NCBI RefSeq assembly: GCF_009797025.1
Contig: NZ_CP047027.1
Coordinates: forward strand, 3,596,001-3,660,000
From: Cellulophaga sp. L1A9
Lineage (GTDB): Bacteria; Bacteroidota; Bacteroidia; Flavobacteriales; Flavobacteriaceae
Length of the DNA: 64,000 nt
Direction: 5' to 3'
Shown here: in pieces, positions 41,966-63,316 of the stretch
How the letters are laid out: every line of letters begins with the position of its first letter
Position numbering within the stretch: position 1 is the first letter of the stretch
The notes under the pieces: generated by a model
Database searches by the model: none
Told to the model about the DNA's origin: nothing
What the model saw: the letters and a program-made list of their open reading frames with translations, nothing else
Made by a program: the position numbers and the translations under genes

Positions 41966-41980
41966 TTTTTTAATTGGTTA

Positions 41981-42099
41981 CAACGTTAAGTATAAGAAAT
42001 CGTAGGGCAGGTGATAAGCACTTACGTTTCGGTTTATCACTTAGCTAAATATAAATATTTTGCTTTTATCTTTTGTCCTATAAACGCCATATTTTATAT
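41981..42099. repeat. truncated attC-like spacer (family C)
   Basis: The left end reads ACAACGTTAAGTATAAG. The stretch after it aligns by eye with the 59.3-kb spacer (GTAGGGCA, CTTTCGGTTTAT, ACTTAG, CTTTTATC/CTTCTATC blocks). The right half with the GTTGTG/GTTAGC end is missing, because the adenylate kinase remnant is fused into it. Confidence 0.6.
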
Positions 42100-42251
42100 T
42101 CAGATGCCTTAATTCCCAATTCTGATTTTTGAGCTTTTTCTTGTCTTAACACATCTCCTGTAGAGAGGTGGATTACCCCGAAATCATTAATAATCTTTTT
42201 ACTTTGTGTTCCTTTTCCAGCAAGGGGTGGTCCGAAAATAATAATGTTCAT
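42078..42251 (-). pseudogene. truncated adenylate kinase
   Basis: The 57-residue frame from the ATG at 42251 is the start of an adenylate kinase: [20 protein letters not shown] (P-loop GPPLAGKGT) and [12 protein letters not shown]. Normal enzymes have about 190-215 residues, so lid and core are absent. The last codons (after GIKASE) come from the neighbouring spacer repeat, so recombination or deletion inside the spacer removed the rest. It cannot be catalytic. Confidence 0.8.
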
Positions 42252-42263
42252 AGTGTATATTAG

Positions 42264-42390
42264 CGTGTTTATGCACCTCAAAAATAATCAATTACTTAAC
42301 TAATTGAAAAATGGTACCGCCTTAAAAGGCGGTTATAAAGGCCATTGTTTTGTAAATTATGGAGTTGTGTAACGGTTACCATTGTTGTAC
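42264..42390. repeat. spacer element, family A (copy 1)
   Basis: A 127-bp spacer nearly identical to that at 47311-47436. Shared parts are GTGTTTATGCACCTCAAAAA at the left, the palindrome ACCGCCTTAAAAGGCGGT (42316-42333) in the middle, and TATGGAGTTGT near the right end, finishing at GTTGTAC. It separates the adenylate kinase remnant from the next gene. Confidence 0.8.
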
Positions 42391-42395
42391 TTTCG

Positions 42396-43163
42396 TTATC
42401 TTTCAATTATCGCTACTTGATGAGTGATTGAGAATAAATCTATTTTAGAACCATATTCATTCTTTTCGGGTAATCCATAGCAATAAATCAGTTTGTTTTC
42501 AATTTTATTAATATTTTTATCATTCTTAGATTTATAACTAGAAGGAATAAATAAATCGAATTTTTGGCTATTCCCATATTTTCCACCAAAAGTCATAGGT
42601 ATTTTTATGTTTTCTCCAATCTCTACTGCTTTTGTGGTGTATCCTTTTAAAATACAAACAAAACTTTCATCATTTGAATTTAATTTGTTAATGATTTCAT
42701 CCTGCCTCATTATCAAGTCTATAATTTTGACAGTCGTTTTGTTTTCAGTTCTTATAGTTAGATTTTTTAATTCTTCGTAAGATATAGAGGTGAGAGAGTT
42801 TAAGAACTGCTTACTTCTTTTTCCAAAATACCTGTTTCGTGCTTTTCTTATTTTTTCAATAGAATTAAGTTTCTGCAACCTTTCGGCTCTTGGTAAAATA
42901 GTAGATATTAAAACCTCTATATCGTTATTATTACCCTTATTATGCTGTTTGTGAATTTTTAGTATTTCACAATTTGATAAATGACTTTTTTTAGGCCAAT
43001 TCTTGAAATGTGGATCTATTGCATTTATACCACGATTAAATTGGATTTGTACATTACATTCAGGGCATTTAAATTTATCTTTTTTAAAAGAATCATATTG
43101 ATCATCAACTTCATAAGCGTCAATTATCTCACTTTCATATTTTGATGAATTTATTCTAGGCAT
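42396..43163 (-). CDS. CoiA-like zinc-motif protein of unknown function
   Basis: The 255-residue protein has an N-terminal KFKCPECNVQIQFN followed by DPHFKNWPKKSHLSNCEI. This CxxC...H...H...C arrangement resembles the N-terminal zinc-like part of competence protein CoiA and related nuclease-associated families. The middle (about 85-165) is helical and charged; the C-terminus is strand-rich. No catalytic motif is seen. It lies alone between two spacers, directly downstream of the Septu cassette. A defence role is possible but unproven. Confidence 0.5.
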   Translation of the reverse strand: MPRINSSKYESEIIDAYEVDDQYDSFKKDKFKCPECNVQIQFNRGINAIDPHFKNWPKKSHLSNCEILKIHKQHNKGNNNDIEVLISTILPRAERLQKLNSIEKIRKARNRYFGKRSKQFLNSLTSISYEELKNLTIRTENKTTVKIIDLIMRQDEIINKLNSNDESFVCILKGYTTKAVEIGENIKIPMTFGGKYGNSQKFDLFIPSSYKSKNDKNINKIENKLIYCYGLPEKNEYGSKIDLFSITHQVAIIER

Positions 43164-43180
43164 ATTTTTTTTCTAATGAA

Positions 43181-43378
43181 GCACAACGGCACGTATATGA
43201 AATGTAGCGCTGAAAATAAGTGATAACTTTTCGAATAATAAACAAGCCGAATTTTTGAATTTTATTAATTATTTTATTTTTGTGAATTTGTCAAATTTAA
43301 AAATTTAGCGACTTTCCGAAAATTCCTAAACCCTCGTGTTAGTAACTAATTGCGCTATTTTTTTATACACTGTTGTGG
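43181..43378. repeat. attC-like spacer (family C)
   Basis: This 198-bp spacer has inverted ends: GCACAACGGCACGTATATGA on the left and TTTTATACACTGTTGTGG on the right, so CACAAC/GTTGTG and GTATA/TATAC pair in the manner of attC R and L boxes. AT-rich sequence fills the middle. It separates the CoiA-like gene from the Septu pair. Confidence 0.7.
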
Positions 43379-43386
43379 ATAGTTTT

Positions 43387-44031
43387 TTATAGGTTATATT
43401 TTTCAATCAATACATCAAACATCAATGAAAATGAATTATTTGGCATTTTAAATTTATGTATTGCATTTAATTCTTCAGTTGTCAATGTGTTTCGATTTTC
43501 AATAACTTGATTATTTTTTATTTCGTAAATAAGTTTATAAAACATTTTGAGACTTTTTAATCTTCTAGTGTCTAGTAATTCATTATCTAGTCTGTACTTT
43601 TTTATTGTACTTAAACCTAACTGAGAATTATTTCGTGGCTCAATTATTTCATCATTAAATGTAATATGCTCTTTAATTTCAATATCTGTATTTGCACAAG
43701 GATTCAAGGCGTCATTTATTGATATCGTTGAATGTGGTATTTTGTTATTGCAATTATCACAAGATAGAAATAAATTTGTCCACTGAAATGAAAAACTCTT
43801 ATCGACACTTACTTCAATATGATGGTCAACTTCTTTACGTTTACCTTTGAGTTTTGTCTCACAATAAAAACATTTATTATGACTTATTGAATTCAGCTGT
43901 ATTTTAATTGAATTATGAGCATATTTACTTGAATCTGGTCGTTTTTTTCCTGAAGCTAAAAAATTAGATAGCCAAGTCACTTTTCTATCAATTAAAATTT
44001 GAGGCTCAGGAAGTCTCTGAAGTCCTCTCAT
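43387..44031 (-). CDS. ptuB: PtuB, HNH nuclease of a Septu anti-phage system
   Basis: The 214-residue protein has a typical HNH core: CFYCETKLKG (C54, C57), EVDHHIEVS (D69, H70, H71), TNLFLSCDNCNNK (N86, C91, C94). In Septu systems PtuB is the nuclease and PtuA the ATPase; together they abort phage infection by cutting DNA. Its ATG overlaps the ptuA stop (ATGA), so the two are translationally coupled. The pair is flanked by spacers at both sides like a two-gene cassette. Confidence 0.88.
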   Translation of the reverse strand: MRGLQRLPEPQILIDRKVTWLSNFLASGKKRPDSSKYAHNSIKIQLNSISHNKCFYCETKLKGKRKEVDHHIEVSVDKSFSFQWTNLFLSCDNCNNKIPHSTISINDALNPCANTDIEIKEHITFNDEIIEPRNNSQLGLSTIKKYRLDNELLDTRRLKSLKMFYKLIYEIKNNQVIENRNTLTTEELNAIHKFKMPNNSFSLMFDVLIEKYNL

Positions 44032-45248
44032 TTTTTAATGGATTTTATTATTGAATCTAGATTTAAATAGTCAAAATATTCAGGATTTATTCTTAAAAGT
44101 TCGTCCTCAATTCTTTTTATTTCTTTTTTATTATTCTTATTTACAGCTTCTTTCCTTAGCTCAAGAAGTTTTGAAATTTCAGAATTAAAATTTCTTGTGT
44201 CAAATAAAGGGCTAAGTAAGACTTCCTCAATTGGTTTATTGGAATAGAAGTCTGTTTCCTCTTCAATAATTGAATAATCAATTTTGCTTTTACAAACAAA
44301 AACTCGACAATTACTTATAGAAGAAACTATAAAAGGTGAATGAGTTGAAACTATTATTTGAAGCTTAGGAAAGAGCTTCTGAATATTTTTTAAAAATACT
44401 TTTTGCCATTTCGGATGTAAATGATTTTCTGCTTCATCAATTAATAATATACCTTTAATTTGTTTATAATCATTAATTGGAATGTTGTTTAAAGAGCAAA
44501 CTGCATAGACTTGACTCAATAAACTAGCAAACCTTTGTATTAGATATAAATTTCCGCTACTCAACTTATCAAGGGAAATTTCGTTATTACCAACTTTAAT
44601 TATTGGTTGTAAATTAATTCTAGATACGTGAGAAAGACTACCGTTGGAAATGGATAGATTTATAATTTCTTCTAATATATTGTATAATGATTGTCCTAAT
44701 TCTTTTTCATCTTTATTTTTACTATCCTTGAGATAATCAAAAAAGGATATTACTTTGGTAAGCTCAACATTCTTATGTATTCCAGAAATTGAATTGTCGA
44801 GATACTTGTCAATTTCTAAAGATGTGATATTTGATATGTTAAATGAGTCATTAGATAGTTTTGAAGTCCAATAATCAAAAATGAAATCTTTGTTTAAAGT
44901 TGATTCCAATGTTGACACAAACAATTGATTAATATCGTTATTGTTAGTTACAAGTGCATTATTGTTTTTTCCAGTTTTTTTAGTTGCAGTAAAAGTAAAA
45001 TGTTTGTCGTTTAGAATTATTTCCGACTTAACTTCAAATTTGTCGTTAGAGGTAATATCTCTTTCGATACCATTTCTAAAAACACCATTGAATAGAGCTC
45101 GAATAGCGTCAATTATGATTGATTTACCTGTACCATTCTCACCTGTAATGCATATTATTGGTAAGTCATCTGTGTCTTCACTTATAAATTCAAGTTCAGC
45201 CTTTTTAAAAGGTCCAATATTTACAAGATTTAAATTTTTTATTCTCAT
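44028..45248 (-). CDS. ptuA: PtuA, ATPase of a Septu anti-phage system
   Basis: The 406-residue AAA/ABC-type ATPase has Walker A GENGTGKS (residues 36-43), a signature-like LSSGNLYLIQRFA, Walker B GILLIDEAENHLHP (about 262) and the switch histidine in STHSPFIVSS. The layout and length fit PtuA, and the HNH partner follows with a four-base overlap. In known Septu systems PtuA assembles into a ring-like or filamentous complex and senses nucleotide levels. Confidence 0.88.
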   Translation of the reverse strand: MRIKNLNLVNIGPFKKAELEFISEDTDDLPIICITGENGTGKSIIIDAIRALFNGVFRNGIERDITSNDKFEVKSEIILNDKHFTFTATKKTGKNNNALVTNNNDINQLFVSTLESTLNKDFIFDYWTSKLSNDSFNISNITSLEIDKYLDNSISGIHKNVELTKVISFFDYLKDSKNKDEKELGQSLYNILEEIINLSISNGSLSHVSRINLQPIIKVGNNEISLDKLSSGNLYLIQRFASLLSQVYAVCSLNNIPINDYKQIKGILLIDEAENHLHPKWQKVFLKNIQKLFPKLQIIVSTHSPFIVSSISNCRVFVCKSKIDYSIIEEETDFYSNKPIEEVLLSPLFDTRNFNSEISKLLELRKEAVNKNNKKEIKRIEDELLRINPEYFDYLNLDSIIKSIKK

Positions 45249-45269
45249 TTAGTTGGTTTTTCAAATAAC

Positions 45270-45465
45270 CCACAACGACTGAGCTATGAACAGTACGGGA
45301 GCAAACTAGCGTTTGCTTTCCGCCACGCACGTAGCGAAATCTTTTGGTTTTGTTTTTTCTTTTTTGTGTCAAAGCGAAATCCCAAAGATTTCGCGACCTT
45401 ATAAAAATACGCAAACCATTCGTTACAGCCCGAAACCAGTATTGTTTATAGGTTTTGTTGTAACC
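45270..45465. repeat. attC-like spacer (family C)
   Basis: The left end reads CCACAACGACTGAGCTATGA; the right end is ATTGTTTATAGG...GTTGTAACC. A hairpin (GCGAAATC...GATTTCGC) lies inside. The middle-right block GCGACCTTATAAAAATACGCAAACC is shared, with changes, with the 52.1-52.3 kb spacer. It lies just upstream of ptuA. Confidence 0.65.
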
Positions 45466-45496
45466 AGTTTTATTCTTCAGTCTTGTTTAATTCTAA

Positions 45497-45895
45497 TTAA
45501 TTTAATTTATTGCGTTTAAATATTTTATCTCTCCAAGTTTGGAATTTAGTCCAGCTCTCAGCGTTAATATTTTTCAAATCCACAAATTCTCCAGTAGAAC
45601 AATCTAGCGCCTCCCATTCCATTTTTTTCATAATCATCCCTATAATATAATGAGGGTTTCCACCACCACGAATATGAAGCATAATAGAGTCAACTTTTTC
45701 TTCCTTTCCTGTATTGAATTCTATGGAAAACCCATCTCCATTTAAAATCCCCCAGTCTTTTACTGAATAATCTAATTCAGGTAATAATATGCATAATTCG
45801 TTAATTATATTATCCCTTATTCCTAAAGAAATTGGTTCATAATCCTTGTCGTTAGTGTCAAATTGTTCTTTTATTAGAATTACATCCCAACTCAC
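45497..45895 (-). CDS. small protein, immunity-like, unknown
   Basis: The protein is about 132 residues from a GTG at 45895 (MSWDVILIKEQF). The longer frame from 45967 starts inside the adjacent spacer and would add non-conserved residues. Features are a beta-alpha protein with SIEFNTGKEEKVDSIMLHIRGGG and a C-terminal SWTKFQTWRDK, resembling small immunity or SUKH-like proteins. No toxin is adjacent. The cassette sits between a family C spacer and a family B spacer. Confidence 0.5.
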   Translation of the reverse strand: MSWDVILIKEQFDTNDKDYEPISLGIRDNIINELCILLPELDYSVKDWGILNGDGFSIEFNTGKEEKVDSIMLHIRGGGNPHYIIGMIMKKMEWEALDCSTGEFVDLKNINAESWTKFQTWRDKIFKRNKLN

Positions 45896-45930
45896 ATTTG
45901 TTTGTTTTTTGGTTATTTTAAATTGGTTAC

Positions 45931-46280
45931 AACAATTATATAATAAACATATGTTCATTATATCCATTATAAATTTACAATAATAAGATTAGCTTCTACG
46001 TGATGAACAGATGCTCTAATCTAAGCGCTCTATCATACCAATCCTTAGCTATCACTATAACGTTAATCGAATGATGCATCTGTAACATCATCCTATAAAA
46101 ATAAAAAAATTACAGAGCGTCTAATTTTCTTAGTTTTGTTTATTGGTCTTGTTTCAAAATACACATTAAAACATACCGTAAACTATCTAAATTTTTGTGG
46201 GGGGAATATTACGTTGCTAATATAAAACATAATAGTATTCAAAACCTTGCGGAAATCCGCAGAATTGAAAAAAGATAAAA
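45931..46280. repeat. family B spacer, long copy
   Basis: About 350 bp that match the 49.2-49.6 kb copy almost throughout. Hallmarks: AACATATGTTCATTATA at the left, GATGCATCTGTAACATCATC hairpin, CAAAATACACATTAAAACAT, TTTGTGGGGGGA, TATTACGTTGCTAATATA and a TGCGGAAATCCGCA hairpin at the right. It holds no ORF. Confidence 0.85.
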
Positions 46281-46598
46281 TAAACTAATGGACTAAGATT
46301 GTTTTTATTTACATGAATCTACTTTTCATATTTTGACTTCCTAATTCGATAATTAATATCATTTAAGAATATTAAATACCAAGAGTCAAATGAAACCCTT
46401 TTTCATGGTCAAATATATATCCATATATTTTTTGGTCTTTCTTGAACATTTTGTTTTAATGTATTACAAAGTTTTGGACATAATTAATTCGGTTACTAAA
46501 AGCACTAAGTTTTAAAATAAGCACTCAGCGAATTTTCTTATAGTGCCTTATATATTTTATTCAGGTTCCGATTTTACAAACGAACTAAAAATTCCGAT
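46281..46598. other. gene-free interval
   Basis: About 320 AT-rich bases follow the family B spacer. I see no ORF, repeat or promoter with support; it may be the worn remains of a lost cassette. Confidence 0.35.
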
Positions 46599-46748
46599 TT
46601 AATTTATTTGTTTATTTTGATTTTCAGTTTCTTTTACTCTTTTTATATATCCCGATTTTTTACCCACAAAAAAACCTAAAAAGAAAATTCCAACTGGAAC
46701 TATTAGTATTAAAATCAATTGAATAGGTCCTACCATTTGTAAAATCAT
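46599..46748 (-). CDS. small membrane protein, 49 residues
   Basis: A 49-residue frame from the ATG at 46748 reads as one membrane helix (LILILIVPVGIFFLGFFVG) followed by KKSGYIKRVKE and a basic, Asn-rich tail. This is a plausible single-pass protein. It lies between two family B copies as a cassette of its own. Function unknown; homology not recognised. Confidence 0.45.
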   Translation of the reverse strand: MILQMVGPIQLILILIVPVGIFFLGFFVGKKSGYIKRVKETENQNKQIN

Positions 46749-46810
46749 ATGTTTGTTTTTTTAATTAATTTTTATTTCCTATTTCGAGCTAATTCCACAA
46801 TTAATCGAAA

Positions 46811-46912
46811 CTTATCGTAAACCACGTTAATTTTTGTAGGATAAGTATTACGTTGCTAATATAAAACATAATAGTATTTAAAACCTTGCGGGAATCCGCA
46901 GAATTGGAAAAA
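46811..46912. repeat. family B spacer, short copy
   Basis: About 100 bp carrying the right half of family B: ATCGTAAACCACG, TTTTTGTAGGATAAG, TATTACGTTGCTAATATA and the CCTTGCGGGAATCCGCAG hairpin. The left 240 bp of the long form are missing. Confidence 0.8.
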
Positions 46913-47171
46913 TAATGAATTATATTTATTTTGATTAGGTTTACTAAGAAGTTATATCCCAGTTTTTTATACAAATTTGAATATTATTAATCAATTCTTA
47001 TTTCGAAATTTTTGCCCTTTTATTATTTATTCCCCATCGTATTTTCGCCTTTTGAAAAAATTGAATTTAATTGTATAATCTTGAATAGAAATACATCTTA
47101 GTTATTTAATTTATCAATTTTAGACAATATTAATTTAGATTCATACGCAGATATTAAAACCTCCTTTTCGT

Positions 47172-47310
47172 TTAGTTTTTATCGTAAATTTTTTCTTGAA
47201 TGTTTTTTGCTACGTTACCTATTTCTTTCTCTAATAAATGTATTTTATCATTCACATTTTTTAGTTTTTCTTGCTTTTTTAAAATTTCTATTTTAATAGT
47301 TGATGCTAAG
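47172..47310 (-). pseudogene. C-terminal fragment of a coiled-coil protein
   Basis: The frame has no ATG of its own; it reads STIKIEILKKQEKLKNVNDK and LLEKEIGNVAKNIQEK, a coiled-coil tail ending at a TAA at 47172-47174. Its upstream boundary is exactly a family A spacer. This looks like a cassette whose 5' part was lost at the spacer, matching the fate of the adenylate kinase. The 46913-47171 stretch beyond it shows nothing else. Confidence 0.4.
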
Positions 47311-47436
47311 GTGTTTATGCACCTCAAAAATAACCAATTTCTCAACTAATTAAAAAATGATACTGCCTTAAAAGGCGGTTATAAAGGTCATTATTTTATA
47401 AAATATGGAGTTGTACAATGGTTGCTAGTGTTGGCT
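47311..47436. repeat. spacer element, family A (copy 2)
   Basis: A second copy of the 42.3-kb spacer: GTGTTTATGCACCTCAAAAA, the worn palindrome CTGCCTTAAAAGGCGG, TATGGAGTTGT. It ends at GTTGGCT at the stop codon of mmpB. Confidence 0.8.
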
Positions 47437-48033
47437 TTAGTTTTTTGCAAATTTAATTAATGGTGCAACGTTTCCATCGTCAGCTTTTTTTAAAGCGTTA
47501 ATATATTCTTTTCTTATTTCGTTAGATTTAACCATATTTGATTGATGCCACGAGAATATTTCTTTCTGAAATATTGATTCTATTATGATGTCCACCATCA
47601 TTCTAGAATGTCTTCCATTTCCATTAGGAAAACAATGAATAGATACTATTCGATGTTTAAATCTAATAGCAACTTCTTCTGGTACATAGGTTTTGTTTTC
47701 AATCCAATACTTTGTGTCGTCCAATAAATTTTTTAATTCAATTCCAATTTGTGTCCAAGATATTCCGATGTTTTTTTCAGTTCTTCTAAATTCGCCTGCC
47801 CATTTCCAGACATCACCATACATTCTTTTGTGTAAGTTTTTAATAAACTTTTCTGTCAATATATTTTCAGGTTTAAATTTTGTGTGAATAGTCCACTCGA
47901 CTACTTTTTCAATGTTTTATTGCTCAAATTCATCCAACTCTCCTTGAGTTGTAATCGACTTTATTTTAAGACCTTCCTTTTCTTCCTCGTCTAGTGCTGT
48001 TTGTCCATCCTTATAATCGAATTTTAATCCCAT
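47437..48033 (-). pseudogene. mobile mystery protein B (Fic family) with internal stop
   Basis: From the ATG at 48033 (MGLKFDYKDGQTALDEEEKE) the frame is open for 38 codons, meets TAA at 47917-47919, then continues to 47437. The downstream part holds the Fic motif HCFPNGNGRHSR (about residues 133-144), a slight variant of HPFxxGNGRxxR. The family is about 190-200 residues, so a single nonsense change breaks it. A restart near 47859 would give a 140-residue Fic domain without the N-terminal segment. Fic proteins usually AMPylate targets. It overlaps mmpA by ten bases. Confidence 0.75.
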
Positions 48034-48485
48034 AATGACTTTCTCATCTCTCGTTTGATTTCACTAGCAAGTTCCTTTATAGTTCTGGCTATTTTTTCAT
48101 CTCCAATTCCTTGGTCCTCTAGTTTCATATTTTGATTGGTCCGCAACACTATTTTTTGAGCCAGTTTTTCTGCTTCGATTTGGATTAAATCGTTGATGGT
48201 CCCATTTTTTGGGACAAATCCATATACAAATTTCATATCCAGTGCTTGACCTACATCTCTTAATTTGTTAATGGTTATTTGACCTAAAGCCTCTCGCTCT
48301 TCTATCTTTTGTATAGCTCCTTTAGTCATTTCAAGTTTGGTCCCTAACTGATCCCTAGTCATATTAAGTGTGGTCCGGATAGTGTTTATCCATCCTTTTG
48401 TTGGAATCTGGACCATTGCTGAATCTTTAAATTTCTCTAATTTTTTGTCTAGTTGTTCAATTAGAAGTTGTTTTTTGTTTCTCAT
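48024..48485 (-). CDS. mobile mystery protein A (HTH regulator)
   Basis: The 153-residue protein matches mobile mystery protein A: a helix-turn-helix at about residues 35-75 (IRTTLNMTRDQLGTKLEMTK, then GAIQKIEEREALGQITINKL), followed by ALDMKFVYGFVPKNGT. It is paired with the Fic protein B and probably represses the pair. Three phased palindromes and a -33/-7 promoter lie just upstream, consistent with autoregulation. In this family A/B pairs travel on mobile DNA and may act like a toxin-antitoxin module; that role is inferred. Confidence 0.85.
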   Translation of the reverse strand: MRNKKQLLIEQLDKKLEKFKDSAMVQIPTKGWINTIRTTLNMTRDQLGTKLEMTKGAIQKIEEREALGQITINKLRDVGQALDMKFVYGFVPKNGTINDLIQIEAEKLAQKIVLRTNQNMKLEDQGIGDEKIARTIKELASEIKREMRKSLWD

Positions 48486-48500
48486 AATTTTTTAGAAAAC

Positions 48501-48581
48501 ATACATATGTATATAATAATATTGACAAAAGTATACAAATATGTATAAAAAACAAAAATATAAGAATACATATATGTATTC
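48501..48581 (-). promoter_or_regulatory. mmpA promoter with three phased operators
   Basis: Three inverted repeats of the form TACA...TGTA lie at 48501-48512 (ATACATATGTAT), 48532-48547 (TATACAAATATGTATA) and 48564-48581 (GAATACATATATGTATTC, perfect over 18 bp). Their centres are 33 bp apart each time. On the minus strand a -33 TTTTTG (48553-48558) and a -7 TACTTTTG (48526-48533) are spaced by 19 bases. Operator 2 lies inside the promoter and the others flank it. The start site would be near 48520, 35 bases before the mmpA ATG. Confidence 0.7.
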
Positions 48582-48671
48582 TTTTTAAATAAAAAGTGTA
48601 TGGATAAGTATGCTTATTAAAGTTAGTTTGTTAAAATCAAAGTCAGCGGTTCTTAGATACCTCCGTTTTAG

Positions 48672-49187: not shown

Positions 49188-49219
49188 TATTTACTTTGGT
49201 GTGTTTTTTCAAATTAAAG

Positions 49220-49556
49220 CCAACTATTATATATTCAACATATGTTCATTATAGCTATTATAAATTTACAACACTAAGATTAGTTTCTATATCAAGAACA
49301 GCTGCCTTAAATTAATCGCTCTATCAGACCAATGCTTAGCTGTCACTATGACGTTCACCTAATGATGCATCTGTAGCATCATCCTATAAAATTACAGGAC
49401 GTCTAATTCTCTTAGTCTTGTTTCCTGGTCTTGTTTCAAAATACACATTAAAACATACCGTAAACTATGTAAATTTTTGTGGGGGGAGTATTACGTTGCT
49501 ACTATAGAAAATAATAGGATTTAAAACCTCACGGATTCTGCAGAATTGGAAAAAGG
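49220..49556. repeat. family B spacer, long copy
   Basis: About 340 bp closely matching the 45.9-46.3 kb copy, with the same AACATATGTTCATTATA start, TGATGCATCTGTAGCATCATC hairpin, TTTGTGGGGGGA core and a worn CGGATTCTGCAG end. The tail up to about 49610 (AAAGGTAGCACGGTATTACAG) is also shared with other B copies. The remaining 130 bp to the next gene show nothing else. Confidence 0.85.
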
Positions 49557-50932: not shown

Positions 50933-51055
50933 TTTATGTAGGTAGCTTCTTTTAGTTTTAAGACTTCTTATAAGAATATTTAATTAGGAAACCTTCATTT
51001 TTATTCTTGCCAAGCACATGCTTTCTATTCTATACTTTTTTTGCAGCTAATGCTC

Positions 51056-51170
51056 AAAAATACACATGAATAACACTTGTAAGTTACATAAATATTTATG
51101 AGGTGAACTATGTAGCTACCATAACACATAATACGCTTTAAAACGGTGCAGAGAACTGCAGAAGTACATA
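51056..51170. repeat. family B spacer, diverged copy
   Basis: About 115 bp with the order of family B blocks (AAAAATACACATGAA, ATAAATATTTATGAGG, TAGCTACCATAACACATAATACG, GCAGAGAACTGCAG hairpin), more diverged than the long copies. A shared tail (CGGTAGTACAGCCG) follows. Confidence 0.65.
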
Positions 51171-52086: not shown

Positions 52087-52094
52087 TAGGTAAT

Positions 52095-52281
52095 TGTTAC
52101 TTAAGCTGGAGCCAAGTGTATCGTGGAGCATGCGAAAGTTTTTTACTTCCGCCCGCGCGGATAGCAAAAGCTTGTTGTTTGTATTTTCTACTAAAACTAA
52201 ACCCATAAGCTTTAGCGACTTTATAAAAATAAGTAAACCTTTTGATTAAGACTGAAATCCGTGTTGTTTTTAGGTTGTGTT
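52095..52281. repeat. attC-like spacer (family C)
   Basis: About 187 bp. The right half (AGCGACTTTATAAAAATAAGTAAACC ends shortly before GTGTTG) matches the 45.3-kb spacer, ending in TTTTTAGGTTGTG. The left end (AAGCTGGAGCCAAGTGTAT) is diverged. Confidence 0.55.
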
Positions 52282-52304
52282 CTTTACAGTTTTTATTATT
52301 GACG

Positions 52305-53648: not shown

Positions 53649-53840
53649 TTGTAGTGTGATTTATAAGGATTAGTATTAAAAAATGACGACTGTCATAATT
53701 TTAGTATATATAAAATTCAATTCTTCGTTCGATTTTTTGAAATAACACATAACATAAAGCTAAGCGTATGTTTTCTATTATTCTCTATAAGCTTAATACT
53801 ACGATTTTTTAATTTTCTAATTATTGTTTATAGCTAATGC

Positions 53841-53960
53841 CCCAAAATACACATTAAAAAATACATTAAACTATATAAATATTTGTGGGGGGAAGTATTA
53901 GGTAGCTAAGAAAAAATTAATGCTATTTAAAGACTTTCAGAAAACCGTAGAATTGAAAAA
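53841..53960. repeat. family B spacer, short copy
   Basis: About 120 bp: CAAAATACACATTAAAAAAT, ACTATATAAATATTTGTGGGG, GAAGTATTAGGTAGCTA, worn hairpin AGAAAACCGTAGAATTG. A 190-bp stretch to its left (53649-53840) shows no gene. Confidence 0.75.
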
Positions 53961-56357: not shown

Positions 56358-56471
56358 TTTTTAGTAAAATTTATAGGCAATTGCTATGCTTTTATTATTA
56401 GAATTAATACAGGGTTTGTTAATGGTTGATTTTATATATCTGTTTACTGAGTGGTCAAGACCACATTTTTT

Positions 56472-58337
56472 TTATTTAGTAATTGTTTTTTTGATTAGTG
56501 GAATTGAATAATATAAAAATATAAAACCAGAAATAAGGAGAATTGGATGCAGGTTATCGCCAAGTTTTGTTAATATATCATTGTATACATATTTTGGAAA
56601 ATATTCACTACCCGTTTTTGTTGAAAGTACCTGAAGAGAGGAAATACAAAAGAGTAATGTGTAGACTAGAGGAAGAAAACAGATGAGTCCTAGGTTGAAA
56701 AGTACACCAAAAATAAATTTGTTTTTTTTGTAGAGTATATAAGGCAGGACTATAAAACTCGTATATAAAATTAATAAGCAAATGATTTGAACGTATACTT
56801 CTTCAAAATAAGTTTTACTGTGATCTATTGGACCAATGGAAATGCTAAAAACAACAGCAGTTAGAATTAACGAGGTAATAAAGATTTTAATATTCGAAAC
56901 TCGGAATATAAATACTATTATAGAATAAATAAATGCTAAATATAAATAGTAATTCCAATTGGATCGTATTTTCTTTAATAAATTGCCTTTTAGGCTATTA
57001 TTAATAGGGTGGAATATACTCGTCAAGGAAAAAACATCTATATAAGGATTTTTACCTTCTACTTTTTTGCTATAGCCGGCTGTTCCATAAGTCATTAAAG
57101 CATCAGTACTATTAGGGTCTGTACCGAAAATAATATTTCTAACAACAGATTGCTCATTATATACTAGGTCAAACCACTCTTCTGCATCTATATTTCTCTT
57201 TATTTCATACTTATCTGTAAGTGAAATAAAGTCAGCCATTATTTTTTTTATTTGTTCTTCCCTGTCCTCACTATTTAAAAGTTCGTGAACAAATTTGTTC
57301 ATGTTATACCTTTTTTTAAGGTGAGCATTATGATATCCTTCTGCTTGAAATTTATAATTAGTATCTGCAATAGTAGTTTTTACAGGTATTAAAACACTTG
57401 AGTAATTGTAATAATTTAATTGATATTCTTTATAACTTTTAGCTTTTGAAAGCTGATAGTTAGTGTAATTTTTGATTTCTACAATGGCTTTTTTTATGTT
57501 ACCATTTTCTTTATAAATAATTTCTCCTATTTGGAAATCCTTAGTATGCGTTGTATCAAGTTTTAGATGTGGTAAGGGTTTAAAAATTAAATAATCACCA
57601 GGAATAGTATCAAAAGGATTTCTAATAACATTGGTAATGGAATCAAAAGAAATGATAGTAATTTTAGTGCTATCAGAATTTATTTTTGTTCTTACGGTAC
57701 GGTTATCACTTCTGTATTTTTCATTATAGGTTTCTTCTGTTTCTTTAACGGACCAGAACCGATATTTTCTATCTTCATAATTATAGAAGTAATCTTCAGT
57801 AGCATCACTTGATATTTCCGTAGATGTTAACTTATCAAAAGGAAAGTCATAGGTACGATTGCTTAAAGAATAATAAGCTTTATCAAAATTTAAAAATACA
57901 CCAGCCTTATTCACTATTTCTATGTCCTTAGCCAGCTCTTTATTGGAATAATTAGATTTAATACCACACATTAATCCAATGCTAAACGAATAGTAAAATG
58001 AGGTTAGGCAAAATGAGATAAAAAAATAACATAAAAATTGAAAGAAAATTTTTCTATTGGAAAATTGAAAGAAAGATTTGAATGATTTTTGTTTACTCAT
58101 TAAAAATATCCAAAATATAAATAGTAGTAGCGATGTTAGTGCTCCTATTAGGAGTAAGTTGTTTTCATAGTACTTATGAAACTCATATTCTTGAAATACT
58201 TTTGGATCATCTGTTAACAGAAAACCGTAAATAAAATAGATCAAGTGAAAAATACCTGTTATTAGTAGTATAGGTAATAACTTAGTATTTTTTAAAGCGA
58301 TATGTTTATTTTCTAAATTTTTAAAAAAGGTTTTCAT
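56472..58337 (-). CDS. large membrane protein of unknown function
   Basis: The 621-residue protein has about four N-terminal membrane segments (residues 15-125), a long periplasmic or cytosolic soluble domain (about 130-450) and four more membrane segments at the C-terminus (about 460-615). The soluble part has no recognised motif. It ends 114 bp before the YwqK-like start, so both may be one unit. Confidence 0.55.
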   Translation of the reverse strand: MKTFFKNLENKHIALKNTKLLPILLITGIFHLIYFIYGFLLTDDPKVFQEYEFHKYYENNLLLIGALTSLLLFIFWIFLMSKQKSFKSFFQFSNRKIFFQFLCYFFISFCLTSFYYSFSIGLMCGIKSNYSNKELAKDIEIVNKAGVFLNFDKAYYSLSNRTYDFPFDKLTSTEISSDATEDYFYNYEDRKYRFWSVKETEETYNEKYRSDNRTVRTKINSDSTKITIISFDSITNVIRNPFDTIPGDYLIFKPLPHLKLDTTHTKDFQIGEIIYKENGNIKKAIVEIKNYTNYQLSKAKSYKEYQLNYYNYSSVLIPVKTTIADTNYKFQAEGYHNAHLKKRYNMNKFVHELLNSEDREEQIKKIMADFISLTDKYEIKRNIDAEEWFDLVYNEQSVVRNIIFGTDPNSTDALMTYGTAGYSKKVEGKNPYIDVFSLTSIFHPINNSLKGNLLKKIRSNWNYYLYLAFIYSIIVFIFRVSNIKIFITSLILTAVVFSISIGPIDHSKTYFEEVYVQIICLLILYTSFIVLPYILYKKNKFIFGVLFNLGLICFLPLVYTLLFCISSLQVLSTKTGSEYFPKYVYNDILTKLGDNLHPILLISGFIFLYYSIPLIKKTITK

Positions 58338-58379
58338 CTGCAGTTGGTAAATAAGTTGATTAGAGTGAGAAAATTAAAT

Positions 58380-58470
58380 TATTAAACTAAAACGTTTTTT
58401 GTGACTATATATTAGTAGCATCACCTAATACATTACGAAGCGTTTAATTTTTTCATTTATAAATTATATG
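58380..58470. repeat. degenerate family B spacer
   Basis: The 228-bp gap between two genes holds TAGTAGCATCACCTAATAC followed by TTACGAAGCGTTTAATT, a worn version of the family B GATGCATC...CATCATC and GCGTCTAATT blocks. The rest of the gap shows nothing. Confidence 0.4.
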
Positions 58471-58565
58471 CAAAGGGTACTGTAAATAATTTTTTTCGAG
58501 TAAATAATAGGTCTTTCGTTAGATTACAGCGTACTTAGAAATCTGTAACTTTTTTTGATTGGTAT

Positions 58566-59264
58566 TTAACAGATCAGCAACAAACGATGTTGTCCTGTTA
58601 TTTCGTTAGGTGCGCGGTGAATACACGGAAGAGATTGACTTTCGGGATGATCTACGGCTAATTTCCATAAATGGCCAATGCCTAAGTTAATAATAGGTGC
58701 TTTAGGTTTAGGTTGATAATGGAGATCAAAGAAATACTCACTTAAAAATGCTTCAAAACCTTCAGCTGCACCACCATACAGTTTTCTGAGTTCCTCCCGA
58801 ATTTCAGGAACCAATACTTTTTGAATGGCTTGTGAATTGGGGATTATATCACTCGAATCACCGTGATAGGTACATAAAAAGGTATCGGTAGGGATAGGAG
58901 AACGATCTACATGAAAAGAATACACATCTGTTGGGAAAAATGGGTACGCATCATCTCTTTCATAACACTTGATTAGATTTAGTACTGGAGAAGCACCATG
59001 ATTTTTTAAGGCCTGCAAATCATTTAAAAGAATTTCACGAGCAAGTTGTCCCTGATCGCTTAATTCTAGTTCACGAAGCTCTTCTTGACCAATTTCCGCT
59101 ATGTTTTCGTGAAGTTCTAATTGCTTGATAATCTCAGAAAAATCGCCTACTAATTCACGAGTCCAACAAGCCGCGTTAATTTTTCCAATAAAAGGCAAGG
59201 AAATAAGGTCGTCAAAATTCGTGACACAGCGAATTTGATGCTCTGCATGAGATAAATCTATCAT
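58566..59264 (-). CDS. DUF1826-like protein
   Basis: The 232-residue soluble protein has YSFHVDRSPIPTDTFLCTYHG and a C-terminal DHPESQSLPCIHRAP, which together resemble the DUF1826 pattern (FHVD...LCTY, HRAP). His and Asp residues could bind a metal. The function is unknown. It is slightly richer in GC than the flanking genes and sits between spacers. Confidence 0.5.
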   Translation of the reverse strand: MIDLSHAEHQIRCVTNFDDLISLPFIGKINAACWTRELVGDFSEIIKQLELHENIAEIGQEELRELELSDQGQLAREILLNDLQALKNHGASPVLNLIKCYERDDAYPFFPTDVYSFHVDRSPIPTDTFLCTYHGDSSDIIPNSQAIQKVLVPEIREELRKLYGGAAEGFEAFLSEYFFDLHYQPKPKAPIINLGIGHLWKLAVDHPESQSLPCIHRAPNEITGQHRLLLIC

Positions 59265-59278
59265 AATGGTTTATAAAA

Positions 59279-59465
59279 ATTGTATCCTAAATGTAGGGCA
59301 TAAAATAAGCAATTACTTTCGGTTTATTACTTAGGTACCTATAAATATATTGCTTCTATCTTTTCCGCTATAAATATCAAGATTTTATAATTGGCGGTCT
59401 TTGTAAATAGCACTGAACTTTCGTAAACCACCGAACGCCCTATTTGCTATATACCGTGTTAGCAG
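59279..59465. repeat. attC-like spacer (family C)
   Basis: About 187 bp with GTAGGGCATAAAATAAGCAA on the left, CTTTCGGTTTATTACTTAGG in the middle, and GCCCTATTTGCTATATACCG then GTGTTAGCAGC on the right. It aligns with the spacers at 41981 and 59884. Confidence 0.7.
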
Positions 59466-59471
59466 CTTTTA

Positions 59472-59852
59472 TTAATTATCAAGTTCTCGATAGAAAGCAA
59501 AGAGATTTTGGTAATGTTCCTTTGTTTTCAATCCCATAATTGATTTTAGATACTCTTTAGGTTCCTTTTTTTGTTCCATTATCGTTACTAAAAAATCTGT
59601 GTATAGGTAATTGGTTACCGTTGACTCAGCTATTTCAAAAGCATTTTCCACTGCGTTCATAAATTGAATTGCTTCTTCACACTCACCATCTTGTACAAAC
59701 TGTGTTAATTGCTTCGCAAGTTTTGTCATAATTCCACAGTTCTCGAATCCATCTTCATCAAGGTCAATATCTTTAAGAAGGTATAGTTGTTTGACTTTAG
59801 GAAATTGATTTTCTAAAGCGGTATAAAATTCAAATGCTGTCTGTTTTGCCAT
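59472..59852 (-). CDS. DUF7674-like small protein
   Basis: The 126-residue all-helical protein has a hydrophobic-heptad pattern and KLAKQLTQFVQDGECEEAIQ, NYLYTDFLVTIMEQ and a C-terminal YQNLFAFYRELDN, as in DUF7674 (immunity-like) proteins. It has no signal. Single-gene unit between two family C spacers. Confidence 0.55.
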   Translation of the reverse strand: MAKQTAFEFYTALENQFPKVKQLYLLKDIDLDEDGFENCGIMTKLAKQLTQFVQDGECEEAIQFMNAVENAFEIAESTVTNYLYTDFLVTIMEQKKEPKEYLKSIMGLKTKEHYQNLFAFYRELDN

Positions 59853-59883
59853 TCCTTGAATTGCTGCGAACTGTCTCGGCCAT

Positions 59884-60060
59884 GATTAGTACGGAAATAA
59901 ATAAGCGATTAATTTCCGATTAAGCACTTAGCCAAATCTTTTAAATTTGTTTTAATTTTTCTCTTTAAATACCAAATCAAAAGATTTGGCGACTTTGCAA
60001 ATAAACAATGACCTTTCGGTTAAACACTAATCGCCCAATTTGCTATATATTGTGTTGTGC
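59884..60060. repeat. attC-like spacer (family C)
   Basis: About 177 bp. A long inner inverted repeat (CTTAGCCAAATCTTTTAAATT and ATCAAAAGATTTGGCGACTT) gives a strong hairpin. The right end reads GCCCAATTTGCTATATATTG then TGTTGTGC, matching the 59.4-kb spacer end. Confidence 0.75.
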
Positions 60061-60075
60061 TTAGTACTTTTTTTA

Positions 60076-60702
60076 TTATTTCGCTATAATTTGATATGGT
60101 ATTTCAGGAAAACCATAAAGGATTGCTTTCTCTTCGGTAATTTCTTTAATACCAATTAGAGTTCTTCTTTTTCCATTGTCATAAACTGAAGCGAAATAAG
60201 TTCCTTGCAGATTTTCTAATACTAATTTTTGCCCTTCTCTGTTTAGTTCATTATTAATTTCTTTTATTGATTTGCTGTCAAGTTCTGTATTAAAAACGAA
60301 AGGAATTTTCTCATTATTCCACTCAGCTTTGAATTCAAGTTTTTGTATTTTATTTGCAGTTAATTCGGTTTCAGTAGGTGTAATTCTTTCGTAATCTATT
60401 CCATATTCAGTGTCCTCTATTTTAGATTCCGCTTCACTAATAACAGTATGGGTTTTTCCCATTCTATAAATTCTTATCCGATTGTCATTTATAAACTCAT
60501 ATTTGGATTCAATTAGTTTTTCATTCCATTCAGAAGTTTTTTTCACTAATTTATCTCCGCTTTTTTTCTCTAAATCAAAGTGAATAATTTGGTCATTCTT
60601 GAATTCAATGAATTCAGGAGGTCCATAATCATCTCCTGTTTTTACCATTAACCAAGTTCCATTAAGACTTTTCATTTTTCTATTTTTCTGATGATTTTTC
60701 AT
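60076..60702 (-). CDS. uncharacterised lipocalin-like protein
   Basis: The protein is about 208 residues from the ATG at 60702; the frame opens slightly earlier at a TTG inside the spacer, and an ATG at 60675 is also possible. It starts with a basic stretch then LNGTWLMVKTGDDYGPPEFI, a lipocalin-like opening, followed by alternating strands. No signal peptide. Function unknown; single-gene unit. Confidence 0.5.
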   Translation of the reverse strand: MKNHQKNRKMKSLNGTWLMVKTGDDYGPPEFIEFKNDQIIHFDLEKKSGDKLVKKTSEWNEKLIESKYEFINDNRIRIYRMGKTHTVISEAESKIEDTEYGIDYERITPTETELTANKIQKLEFKAEWNNEKIPFVFNTELDSKSIKEINNELNREGQKLVLENLQGTYFASVYDNGKRRTLIGIKEITEEKAILYGFPEIPYQIIAK

Positions 60703-60705
60703 TAT

Positions 60706-60831
60706 GCACAACGTTGTTGTGTATGGTTAGTTTCGTGTTTCAGTAACTAATTTAGTAAACAAAAACCGAATAGAAAATCCGCTAGGATTTTCGTAAGTAG
60801 GCTAAAATTAGCAATAAATTATATACGTTGT
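60706..60831. repeat. attC-like spacer interrupted by group II intron 1
   Basis: The left end is GCACAACGTTGTTGTGTATG; an inner hairpin GAAAATCCGCTAGGATTTTC lies near 60773-60792; the right end is TTATATACGTTGT, where the intron begins. With the intron removed, the spacer continues TAGCAAATG at 61537. Nearly identical to the spacer at 62014-62138. Confidence 0.8.
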
Positions 60832-61536
60832 GTGTGCCCAGCATGGGCATCTTTTGATTTACTGAAAGGTAAATAATTAATCTAGAGGGTGCAAGTCCCT
60901 TATGGGCAGGTGTAACGCCTTGAACCATTAGTAAGCTGCAAGGTTGCTAGTTGTGAAGCTAGGACTGAAGGAAGCAGGACTACAAAACTCGGTACTGACG
61001 AACACTTTTTTGTGCTGTTTTACGTAGTAAAACCAAATGTCTGGTAGACATTTGAACAAATAAAGCGGTGATGTGGCTGGGAGATATGAGGCATAATTAT
61101 CTGGGTAAGCAACCACATCATTGTAACGCCCTAAAGATTACCAAAATGATAGTTATGTAGATACGGCAGGGATCGAGAGAAAGAAGATGTTCTTACCTGG
61201 GGAGATCTCTACAACCACGAGTTGGTATAGTAGAGAAGTCAGCAGAGGTCATAGTACTCACGAGAAACGAGTTGCAGCATATCTGCATAGGTCTCACAAG
61301 TGAGGAAGGACTGAAAGTAATCCTTTCTGAAATGCCAGATGGAGCATTAATTTTCGTTATTGGGTGACCGATTCCCTAGAAAATTTGTAGCCATTTGATA
61401 AAGTAAGAAATAGTTTTGATTGGAGTAAAGAGCAATTGGAAAGATGGGTTACTAACCGCCGTATACGAGACCCGTATGTACGGTGGTGTGAGAGGCGCAC
61501 TCCGTTCCTAATTAGGGGCGGAGCCGTCTACTCGAT
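60832..61536 (+). mobile_element. ORF-less group II intron, copy 1 (705 bp)
   Basis: The 5' end GTGTGCCCAGCATGGGC fits the group II GUGYG start. The 3' part contains a domain V hairpin (61455-61487: ACCGCCGTATACGAG...TACGGTGGT) and a domain VI hairpin (GGGGCGGAGCC), and ends at ...CTACTCGAT. No reverse transcriptase is encoded, so movement would need a helper in trans. It lies on the plus strand, opposite to all surrounding genes, inside a spacer. Two short minus-strand frames over it are not genes. Confidence 0.88.
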
Positions 61537-61555
61537 TAGCAAATGTTTTTTCATT

Positions 61556-61990
61556 TCACGGAGTTGTTATCATTCCAGTAAATAAATATTTTTCGTCAGA
61601 TTTATCAAACATATAAATTATGCTTGATGATTCATTTCCGAACGATTTTTCGAAATTGTAAGTTATTCTAATAATGGAATCCGTTTTGTAATTTGAATAT
61701 TCCATTCCTTTTAGAAGTTCAGCGTTATACAATTTTTCAAGATGTTTTTTAAATATCAATTCGCTAGATTGTAATTTTTCATTCTCCGATGAAATACAGT
61801 CAATACATTTAATTGAGTCGATTGAATTATCCAATAAATACATTAAATCTTTATTCTCAATTCCTATTTTGAATTTTTCCCAAATTGTATTTTTTTCAGT
61901 CAAGTTATTAGATTCCCGCTTACAGGAGAACACTAAGAATGTAAATATTATTAGAATTGAAAATTGGTAATTTACTGTTTTCAGTTTCAT
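61556..61990 (-). CDS. lipoprotein of unknown function
   Basis: The 144-residue protein has a lipobox (LVFSC) and a short polar domain with two Cys (CIDCISS). No family is recognised. It is a single-gene unit between the two intron-bearing spacers. Confidence 0.55.
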   Translation of the reverse strand: MKLKTVNYQFSILIIFTFLVFSCKRESNNLTEKNTIWEKFKIGIENKDLMYLLDNSIDSIKCIDCISSENEKLQSSELIFKKHLEKLYNAELLKGMEYSNYKTDSIIRITYNFEKSFGNESSSIIYMFDKSDEKYLFTGMITTP

Positions 61991-62013
61991 TTGGAGTTTT
62001 TTGACTAATATTT

Positions 62014-62138
62014 GCTAACGGTTTTGTATATGATTTGTTGCGTGGTTAAGCACGTAATTTAGCAAATAAAAATCGAATAGAAAATCCGCGAGGATTTTCG
62101 TAAGTAGGCTAGAACTAGCAATAAATTATATACGGTGT
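62014..62138. repeat. attC-like spacer interrupted by group II intron 2
   Basis: The left end GCTAACGGTTTTGTATATGA has the AACG...GTATATGA pattern. The inner hairpin GAAAATCCGCGAGGATTTTC and the end ATTATATACGGTGT are the same as in the first intron-bearing spacer, with few changes. Confidence 0.8.
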
Positions 62139-62843
62139 GTGTGCCCAGCATGGGCATCTTTTGATTTACTGAAAGGTAAATAATTAATCTAGAGGGTGCA
62201 AGTCCCTTATGGGCAGGTGTAACGCCCTGAAGCATTAGTAAGCTGCAAGGTTGCTAGTTGTGAGACTAGGACTAAAGGAAGCAGGACTACAAAACTCGGT
62301 ACTGACGAACACTTTTTTGTGCTGTTTTACGTAGTAAAACCAAATGTCTGGTAGACATTTGAACAAATAAAGCGGTGATGTGGCTGGGAGATATGAGGCA
62401 TAATTATCTGGGTAAGCAACCACATCATTGTAATGCCCTAAAGAGTACAAAAATGGTAGTTATGTAGATACGGCAGGGATCGAGAGAAAGAAGATGTTCT
62501 TACCTGGGGAGGTCTCTACAACCACGAGTTGGTATAGTAGAGAAGTCAGCAGAGGTCATAGTACTCACGAGAAACGAGTTGCAGCATATCTGCATAGGTC
62601 TCACAAGTGAGGAAGGACTGAAAGTAATCCTTTCTGAAATGCCAGATGGAGCATTAATTTTCGTTATTGGGTGACCGATTCCCTAGAAAATTTGTAGCCA
62701 TTTGATAAAGTAAGAAATAGTTTTGATTGGTGTAAAGAGCAATTGGAAAGATGGGTTACTAACCGCCGTATACGAGACCCGTATGTACGGTGGTGTGAGA
62801 GGCGCACTCCGTTCCTAATTAGGGGCGGAGCCGTCTACTCGAT
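62139..62843 (+). mobile_element. ORF-less group II intron, copy 2 (705 bp)
   Basis: Same length as copy 1, with about eleven substitutions seen by eye and no length change. It has the same GTGTG start and the domain V and VI hairpins, and ends in CTACTCGAT. It lies on the plus strand, at the same point of the spacer as copy 1. No ORF inside encodes a reverse transcriptase. Confidence 0.88.
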
Positions 62844-62857
62844 TGGTTTTAGTTTTT

Positions 62858-63316
62858 TTATATAACTTCAAATTCTACTTTTCTAATTGCAGAAGTAGGA
62901 GCACTTATGGTAATTTTAACATTATCAATTATTGTGGTTGTCTTATGAATATTGTAATTTGTTTTAACCCAATGAACTATGTTTGAAGATATCACACCTT
63001 TATTAACCATTGAAGAAGCAAATTGTATAACTATATCTTGTTCAGTAAAATCAGGATCAATTTTTACACTAATCATAAAATAACTTACATTTTTTGAATC
63101 GGGGCTGATTGCTTTAACGTTGAAATCTCCTCCGCCTCCTTTTTGCTTCCATTGCCATTCGTTAGGTTCAGTCTTTGTAAGTTTAAAACCAAGTTTTGAT
63201 TCAAAACCATAGCTTATTTCTTCTATAGAAAGTTCTGGTATGAAATTATTTTTTTCATTATAACAAGAATAGATAAATAAAGAAAGTGTAAATAGTAATG
63301 TTTTTCTATATTTCAT
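62858..63316 (-). CDS. lipoprotein of unknown function
   Basis: The 152-residue protein has a lipoprotein-like N-terminus (FIYSC), then ELSIEEISYGFESKLGFKLTK and WQWKQKGGGGDFNVKAIS. No family is recognised. It is the last intact cassette-like gene before the IS remnant. Confidence 0.55.
   Translation of the reverse strand: MKYRKTLLFTLSLFIYSCYNEKNNFIPELSIEEISYGFESKLGFKLTKTEPNEWQWKQKGGGGDFNVKAISPDSKNVSYFMISVKIDPDFTEQDIVIQFASSMVNKGVISSNIVHWVKTNYNIHKTTTIIDNVKITISAPTSAIRKVEFEVI

Follow-up and report, generated by a model that had tools for sequence, protein, structure and literature searches.

A probable integron-like cassette array, partly decayed, in Cellulophaga sp. L1A9 and its related Bacteroidota recombinases

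The insert specific to integron integrases (IntI) is said, in the title of Messier and Roy 2001, to be necessary for IntI activity. The present locus lies in the genome of Cellulophaga sp. L1A9 (G000; 5,072,468 bases, one contig), in a stretch of 64,000 nucleotides (nt) called here the window (G000:C1:3596001-3660000). Its last third is very probably a partly decayed mobile cassette array of an integron-like Bacteroidota system, in which a tyrosine recombinase of about 375 amino acids (aa) would act on attC-like sites. Integrons are commonly identified through IntI and are reported to be rare in Bacteroidota. A review counts Bacteroidota among the phyla with integrons (PMC8618304), and the IntegronFinder 2.0 survey names one complete integron from Bacteroidetes, that of Salinibacter ruber (PMC9024848). 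In one survey IntI was chosen by its additional domain (PMC2426708), and in another the selection was by IntI genes and/or attC clusters (PMC9668308).

The evidence for the array is evidence of sequence and comes mostly from relatives. It consists of covarying helices, pairing between the start and the end of cassettes, copies that end at G^TT (the caret marks the cut), a common direction of genes, a recombinase at the head of arrays, and turnover at the window's own locus. The original prediction, which had read the region as a cassette array perhaps served by a non-canonical recombinase, is supported: a tyrosine recombinase outside IntI heads such arrays, and their sites do not follow the integron core GTTRRRY.

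Site architecture and pairing of cassette ends

The sites were located by two covariance models, R1 from 39 short sites and R2 from 15 long sites, all taken from other arrays. No training site comes from the window, and R2 includes one site of this genome's other array (L024). Eight attC-like sites are matched in the window between 41978 and 62144, all on the minus strand (Table 1), and the next-best match elsewhere in the window has E = 0.25. The likely genes from 41270 to 63689, read by eye from the list of open reading frames (ORFs), are all carried by the minus strand, as the original prediction had stated, and the six positions it had named for sites (43181, 45270, 59279, 59884, 60706, and 62014) all fall inside minus-strand matches of the models. 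Its description of recurring spacers as sites is correct for many of them, but only eight of the 20 non-empty spacers bear a site, and the repeats at 46.1, 46.7, 49.4, 51.0, and 53.8 kb belong to another family. Between about 46.0 and 58.5 kb there is a single weak site, at 52100-52285 (46.9 bits). The adenylate kinase gene that was thought to be cut at a spacer is indeed present as a fragment at site 41978. GTT is absent from the R'' end of sites 59271 and 52100, and the R' half is absent in site 41978. The array extends beyond the window, with further sites at G000 3,660,665 and 3,662,546.

The attC-like sites are imperfect palindromes with R', L', L'', and R'' arms, as integron sites are. 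Their length is mostly about 132 nt (short form) or about 196 nt (long form), with the same arms in both forms. The inverted spacer ends, earlier proposed to be R and L boxes around an inner hairpin, correspond to the R'-L' and L''-R'' arms, which form a helix with covariation in relatives. The L arm and the inner stem form a helix whose cells are 96.4% paired in the short sites (n = 39). Both partners of a pair have changed there in 104 instances and one partner alone in none, compared with both-side changes numbering 27.9 for shuffles and 5-29 for slid versions. In the long sites (n = 15), 94.0% of cells are paired and 71 both-side changes occur. All these counts are biased towards the structure, as it was predicted from the same alignments. 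The expectation that the spacers fold as one family holds, as the models from other arrays find the window sites and the helices contain many compensatory changes. G-T pairs occupy none of 504 cells in the short sites and 14 of 430 in the long ones, mostly in tip hairpins (manual count). Given this near-lack of G-T pairs, a DNA hairpin would fit better than an RNA hairpin as the folded form of the sites.

The core was read from 109 sites with matched ends, which are 112 less three that were dropped by eye as false before counting. Of these, 108 have GTTR at the R'' end and one has GTTRRRY, and position 11 is A in 109 of 109; these sites were picked by matching at positions 4-10, so that independent evidence starts from position 11 onward. 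The blind choice yields 46 sites with a long inner stem, some of them false, and 27 of these have A at position 11. The same base is found in 8/8 when the six window sites having GTT are taken together with the two just beyond the window. At position 11 the bottom strand would form a G-T wobble and the top strand an A-C mismatch, and our guess is that this difference may favour the folding of one strand.

Circular cassettes that open at G^TT predict that the R' arm pairs with the start of its own cassette, which is the R'' of the previous site, whereas a fixed hairpin predicts that R' pairs with the R'' of the same spacer. AAC, GTT, and the inner stem were the sole criteria of a blind choice of sites, which gave 318 neighbouring pairs in 34 stretches. 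R' agreed with its own cassette start at 6-7 of seven variable positions in 69 of the 318 pairs and with the R'' of the same spacer in five (Fisher p 5e-17). One array (L094) supplies 21 of the 69, and the result is 48 of 291 versus four when it is left out. In 67 matched cassettes, the match persists at positions 12-14 (0.88, 0.87, and 0.67) and reaches background from position 15. Position 11 is matched in none of them, with A in R'' and C in R' in 58. In these 67 cassettes, 62 ORFs run along the array strand and none against it. This genome's other array gives one of five in the same test. A looser scan rule tried earlier yielded 558 pairs that were mostly noise (at least nine of 13 matching: own end 89, same spacer 41) and was replaced by the stricter rule.

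A cassette start complementary to the cassette's own R' box, with a putative crossover at G^TT, is found in relatives and, in the window, by eye only. The 5' end of the cassette at 42396, GTTGTGCTTC, fits the reverse complement of its 3' end, GTTGTACTTT, and this cassette ends at a different repeat. The ends of the two-gene cassette at 43387 are GTTGTGG and CCACAAC, those of the cassette at 59472 are GTTCGCAGC and GCTGCTAAC (complementary at 8/9), and those of the cassette at 60076 are GTTGTGC and GCACAAC. When an intron in its site is left out, the cassette at 61556 has the ends GTTAGCAAATA and CATTTGCTAAC (10/11), and the ends of one cassette just past the window also fit with its intron left out.

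Recombinase, array head, and turnover

The tyrosine recombinase gene of this genome lies on the minus strand at G000 3,902,747-3,903,873, and a second, richer array stands behind it on the same strand. The original prediction had seen no integrase, which is true within the window, and had proposed to look for a tyrosine recombinase outside it; one is present in the genome, but it is frameshifted and about 240 kb away, at the other array. The frameshift splits the gene into two open frames of 219 and 147 aa. The ortholog of the sister genome (G100) is intact with 375 aa. A transfer RNA gene is located about 0.7 kb upstream of the gene of this genome (L024:9591-9664).

In a search with the N-terminal half, orthologs of this recombinase (type A) score at least 204 bits in 21 of 100 family genomes, its own included, and the next best match has 98 bits. 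Within the genus, 10 of 18 genomes have an ortholog at 240 bits or more. Out of 30 recombinase stretches, 23 were aligned; L084, L085, L086, L093, the truncated L101 and L108, and the broken gene of this genome were omitted. The catalytic residues R235, K260, H324, R327, H350, and Y359 are all present in 23/23 type-A recombinases. The best profile and structure matches of the catalytic part are XerA/XerC/XerD (NF040815, PDB 4a8e, 5hxy). The predicted structure is of moderate quality (predicted local distance difference test, pLDDT, 78.2; predicted template modelling score, pTM, 0.49), and the VIA-align structure rows cover residues 103-375.

The genes behind the recombinase mostly run in its direction, except in L097 (a minority) and L104 (half). 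Of at least 80 named loci, 37 were scored with R1 and R2. Their recombinases are 34-68% identical and belong to Winogradskyella ursingii, Seonamhaeicola aphaedonensis, Algibacter onchidii, two Flavobacterium, Algoriphagus, Rufibacter, Aquiflexum, and Bacteroidota metagenome-assembled genomes. The R1 matches in these loci are all downstream of the recombinase and on its strand (51/51). An inverted repeat with best arms of at least 8 is present in the 110 bases behind the recombinase stop in 17/18 loci, compared with 30/360 shuffles and 41/320 random pieces. This candidate attI-like repeat precedes the first GTT in 16/18 loci. In addition, 21 of the 30 recombinase loci have a zinc-ribbon-like gene within about 1 kb upstream on the opposite strand, with the motif CxxC...GR[ST]DKxxC and a likeness to DUF2116 that is under the cut-off. 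It is possibly an accessory factor or a regulator.

In the proposed mechanism, the Xer/XerA-like recombinase of about 375 aa, encoded at the array head and co-directional with the array, would cut attC-like sites after the G of their GTT. Each circular cassette, in most cases a gene together with its site, would be released, or inserted at the palindromic attI-like site just behind the recombinase gene. The attC-like site would be used as a folded single strand, with a cassette-specific R arm of about 14 nt, a conserved L arm, an inner stem, and a variable tip. We infer the recombinase as the acting enzyme, the single-stranded substrate, the palindrome as the insertion site, and the expression of cassettes by read-through.

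Copied blocks are consistent with such a cut. Eleven repeated blocks within and between arrays of the genus were inspected, with 84.6-100% identity. Block identity ends at most 4 nt past the CGTT of a site in six of them; in four further blocks BLAST runs 13-17 nt past CGTT, yet the letters diverge at CGTT, and the remaining one does not fit. Block starts are also within a few bases of GTT in 3/11. One of the six blocks is common to two species, G100 and G111, with 98.8% identity over 931 bp. The recombinase of G111, despite this common block, is 58% like that of G000 in the half that was compared.

At the window's place in the sister genome the flanks are kept, with 87% identity over 4.3 kb on the left and 84% and 79% over 0.9 and 1.1 kb on the right. 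The interval between them in G100 is occupied by a same-strand array with 10 sites and mostly different genes, plus one weak opposite-strand echo of one site. Besides introns and the 46.1-kb repeats, the blocks of 200 bp or more common to both intervals are only an adenylate kinase fragment and a 1.2-kb two-gene stretch. An array with mostly different genes at the same place suggests that exchange continued there after the species parted. The earlier doubt, that the spacers could be fixed intergenic repeats which never serve as exchange points, is answered by this comparison, together with the copied blocks, most of which end at GTT. The truncated adenylate kinase gene itself (window 42078-42281) corresponds to G100 3659966-3660253 with 91% DNA identity over 280 bp, and most of the surrounding genes differ.

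Spread and alternative explanations

At E <= 1e-6, R1 finds sites in 86 of 100 Flavobacteriaceae genomes, one per genus, with up to 33 candidates scored per genome. At E <= 0.01, it finds none in 15 genomes outside Bacteroidota, with at most 150 candidates scored in each; two of the 15 have an IntI above the cut-off. Of 296 Bacteroidota genomes, 91 have a match to the recombinase profile at E <= 1e-60, with the wider family included and at most six matches counted per genome. It is rather probable that Bacteroidota have their own cassette-exchange system, of a Xer/XerA-like lineage apart from IntI, present in most Flavobacteriaceae genera, with palindromic attI, long R arms, perhaps a strand-marking mismatch, and swappable recombinase subfamilies that share a site type. 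Surveys that seek IntI and GTTRRRY sites are not expected to see such a system. No description of it was found in the open-access literature, preprints not covered, and a published account may exist elsewhere. If a second recombinase lineage does operate in most flavobacterial genera, a large part of gene exchange, including that of defence genes, has been overlooked. Moreover, a recombinase without the IntI insert would make it testable which parts are required for the use of folded sites.

Several observations weigh against a mobile cassette array served by this recombinase. The recombinase of this genome is broken, and none stands beside the window array. Sites are still held by the eight of 18 genus genomes that lack a type-A recombinase, so that its presence alone is no predictor of sites within the genus. 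In 5/8 stretches from these genomes a different recombinase heads the array, with sites directly downstream, and the enzyme may therefore differ. In the named loci, 22 of 37 are without a site by either model (24 without an R1 match), some because the contig ends. The blind scan of the 34 stretches counts 380 sites for the array strand, compared with 324 for the opposite one and 185 for shuffles; it is neither clean nor strand-specific, and the cassette test thus rests on the excess of matches. In the window itself, three of the eight sites are degenerate, the middle region holds other repeats, the ends of the cassette at 62858-63316 do not match, and 0/13 pairs agree in the blind cassette test; a stem scan run blindly on the window alone yields 19 sites, no more than the 22.3 of shuffles. 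With no excess in the blind tests, the case for the window draws on the covariance models and on ends compared by eye. The way the pair counts favour the structure, given above, belongs among these points.

A rival idea is that the window array is a relic, an otherwise ordinary genomic or defence island that retains old sites, and that only the other array was ever served by the recombinase. The separation of about 240 kb, the frameshift, the degenerate sites, the introns and transposase genes, the lack of a blind-scan excess, and the Septu pair in the array would all agree with this, and we regard it as unlikely, though a serious competitor. In contrast, the sister genome has at the same place an array of 10 sites with mostly different genes. 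The mobile cassette array remains the preferred reading, with the qualification that the recombinase is frameshifted and far away at another array, so that the window array has probably been left stranded, without further exchange.

A classical integron, or a cluster of attC sites lacking an integrase (CALIN), with merely a divergent IntI is an improbable explanation. Its plan would be the same (a recombinase, an attI-like site, attC-like sites, one-gene cassettes in one direction, and ends at G^TT), the solved structures closest to the recombinase include IntI4 (2a3v), and the order between recombinase groups in the tree is unsettled. However, the IntI-specific insert is absent. The catalytic lysine is 64-65 residues from the first histidine in 23/23 type-A recombinases, 64 in 16/16 further Bacteroidota recombinases, and 64-65 in 17 of 18 named Bacteroidota loci (69 in the other one), compared with 106 in 3/3 IntI controls from two of the 15 control genomes. 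The spacing is 70-72 in Xer rows and 62-65 in archaeal XerA-like ones, and a spacing of 64-65 residues is not special to the type-A family. The gap is visible also in the alignment to 2a3v. The IntI profile TIGR02249 gives 188.8 and 204 bits, under its cut-off of 265, and XerA NF040815 passes its own cut-off; the genome of L1A9 has no match above the TIGR02249 cut-off. In the tree, type A forms one group (100/100) and IntI another (100/99); it was built from 17 of the 23 aligned recombinases with three IntI rows, has an unresolved backbone and five long-branch rows, and includes L147 and L154, which are misaligned at catalytic residues. The single GTTRRRY among 109 sites and the co-directional recombinase also argue against a divergent IntI, and a separate origin from IntI appears likely from the proteins compared.

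The notion that the spacers are scattered hairpin elements, like miniature inverted-repeat transposable elements (MITE) or repetitive extragenic palindromes (REP), and no exchange points is hardly tenable. In its favour, the spacers are repeats with inverted ends and are numerous in the genus. Against it, the partner of R' is the distant end of the adjoining gene unit and not its own spacer, the orientation relative to genes is single, and the repeats stand behind recombinases. Copied blocks, moreover, contain a gene together with its spacer, and GTT is where most of them end.

Features of the array and comparison with known systems

Table 1. Sites, cassettes, and introns of the window array (window coordinates) and the small gene at the recombinase locus of the same genome
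Feature	Coordinates	Strand	Evidence and remarks
attC-like site	41978-42109	-	R2 45.3 bits, R1 23.4 bits; R'' end GTTGTAACCAATTA present, R' half absent; overlaps the cut adenylate kinase fragment
Cassette gene, 255 aa	42396-43163	-	No Pfam/PADLOC match
attC-like site, long form	43181-43378	-	R2 131.9 bits, E 1.6e-25
Two-gene cassette, Septu-like: PtuB (HNH) 43387-44031, PtuA (AAA ATPase) 44028-45248	43387-45248	-	PADLOC
attC-like site, long form	45270-45463	-	R2 144.5 bits, E 3.6e-28
attC-like site, degenerate, R'' end without GTT	52100-52285	-	R2 46.9 bits, E 9e-08
attC-like site, long form, R'' end degenerate	59271-59464	-	R2 59.6 bits, E 2e-10
Cassette gene, 126 aa, DUF7674-like (under Pfam cut-off)	59472-59852	-	ORF and profile
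attC-like site, long form	59865-60060	-	R2 119.1 bits, E 7.2e-23
Cassette gene, 211 aa	60076-60711	-	Ends compared by eye
attC-like site, short form, R' box split by group II intron	60706-60837	-	R1 80.4 bits, E 1.8e-16
Group II intron without reverse-transcriptase gene, at GT^T of R' box, strand opposite to genes	60832-61536 (first base inferred)	+	RF02001 40.8 bits at 60947-61191
Cassette gene, 144 aa, lipoprotein-like	61556-61990	-	ORF
attC-like site, short form, R' box split by second group II intron	62013-62144	-	R1 105.2 bits, E 2.6e-22
Group II intron, second copy, same insertion point GT^T	62139-62843 (first base inferred)	+	RF02001 37.6 bits at 62391-62469
Cassette-like gene, 152 aa	62858-63316	-	Start after next upstream site mismatches own R'; transposase-like gene between
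Zinc-ribbon-like small gene, recombinase locus of this genome	L024:8959-9342	Divergent from recombinase	Motif

The two-gene cassette has the gene content of a Septu defence system, as a PtuA ATPase (463.1 bits) adjoins a PtuB HNH nuclease (107.1 bits) in PADLOC, and it is a predicted system. A Fic-like gene at 47437-47859 has weak PADLOC matches (PDC-S04) and lies in the 1.2-kb stretch that is also present in the array interval of G100.

Three near-identical ORF-less group II introns of about 705 nt are present, two in the window and a third at G000 3660854-3661558. All three are inserted at GT^T of R' boxes, opposite to the genes. Related introns occur in G100, some followed by a 417-aa frame that resembles a reverse transcriptase by eye.

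Two further repeat families occur between the genes. A separate intergenic family of about 150 nt (up to about 330) is located at 46106-46253, 46745-46892, 49388-49535, 51028-51111, and 53794-53941, and at G100 3659542-3659872. These repeats of 46.1-53.9 kb were considered as attC-like sites and rejected, as the site models do not match them. A 153-nt repeat at 42235-42387 and 47281-47433, also seen by eye at about 930-1060 of L024, lies directly against an attC-like R' box, or against a GTTGTAC stretch resembling one, and contains the hairpin GCCTTTTAAGGC. This repeat may be a cassette without a gene, or else a mobile element with the R box as its target.

Group IIC-attC introns insert in the R box of a site on the strand opposite to the genes, and the introns of the window share this R-box insertion. 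In contrast to them, the three copies here are without a reverse-transcriptase gene, and their assignment is by the Rfam D1-D4-3 model only.

Compared with CALIN, the window sites are likewise clustered with no recombinase beside them. The eight sites of the window are defined by the R1 and R2 models and not by the model of IntegronFinder. The catalytic part of the flavobacterial recombinase best matches XerA/XerC/XerD, whereas its N-terminal extension of about 100 aa and its position at the array head are different.

Vibrio chromosomal integrons have near-identical repeated sites, and one array of the present survey (L094, in G040), with about 20 near-identical sites, can be likened to them. 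In common with integrons of the IntI type, the flavobacterial system has one-direction arrays of mostly single-gene cassettes, hairpin sites with R and L arms, a crossover predicted at G^TT, cassette starts that pair with their own R' box, a candidate site at the array head, and, as in L094, sites that are nearly identical throughout an array. In contrast, its recombinase lacks the IntI insert, falls outside the IntI group, and carries the N-terminal part of about 100 aa; the core is GTTR without RRY; and the arm is about 14 nt long with an invariant mismatch at position 11. Furthermore, the recombinase is co-directional with the array, the putative attI-like site is palindromic, and a divergent zinc-ribbon-like gene is adjacent. 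Without the IntI-specific domain and GTTRRRY sites, it is not an integron sensu stricto, and judged from its sequences the system would work like an integron without being one in that strict sense.

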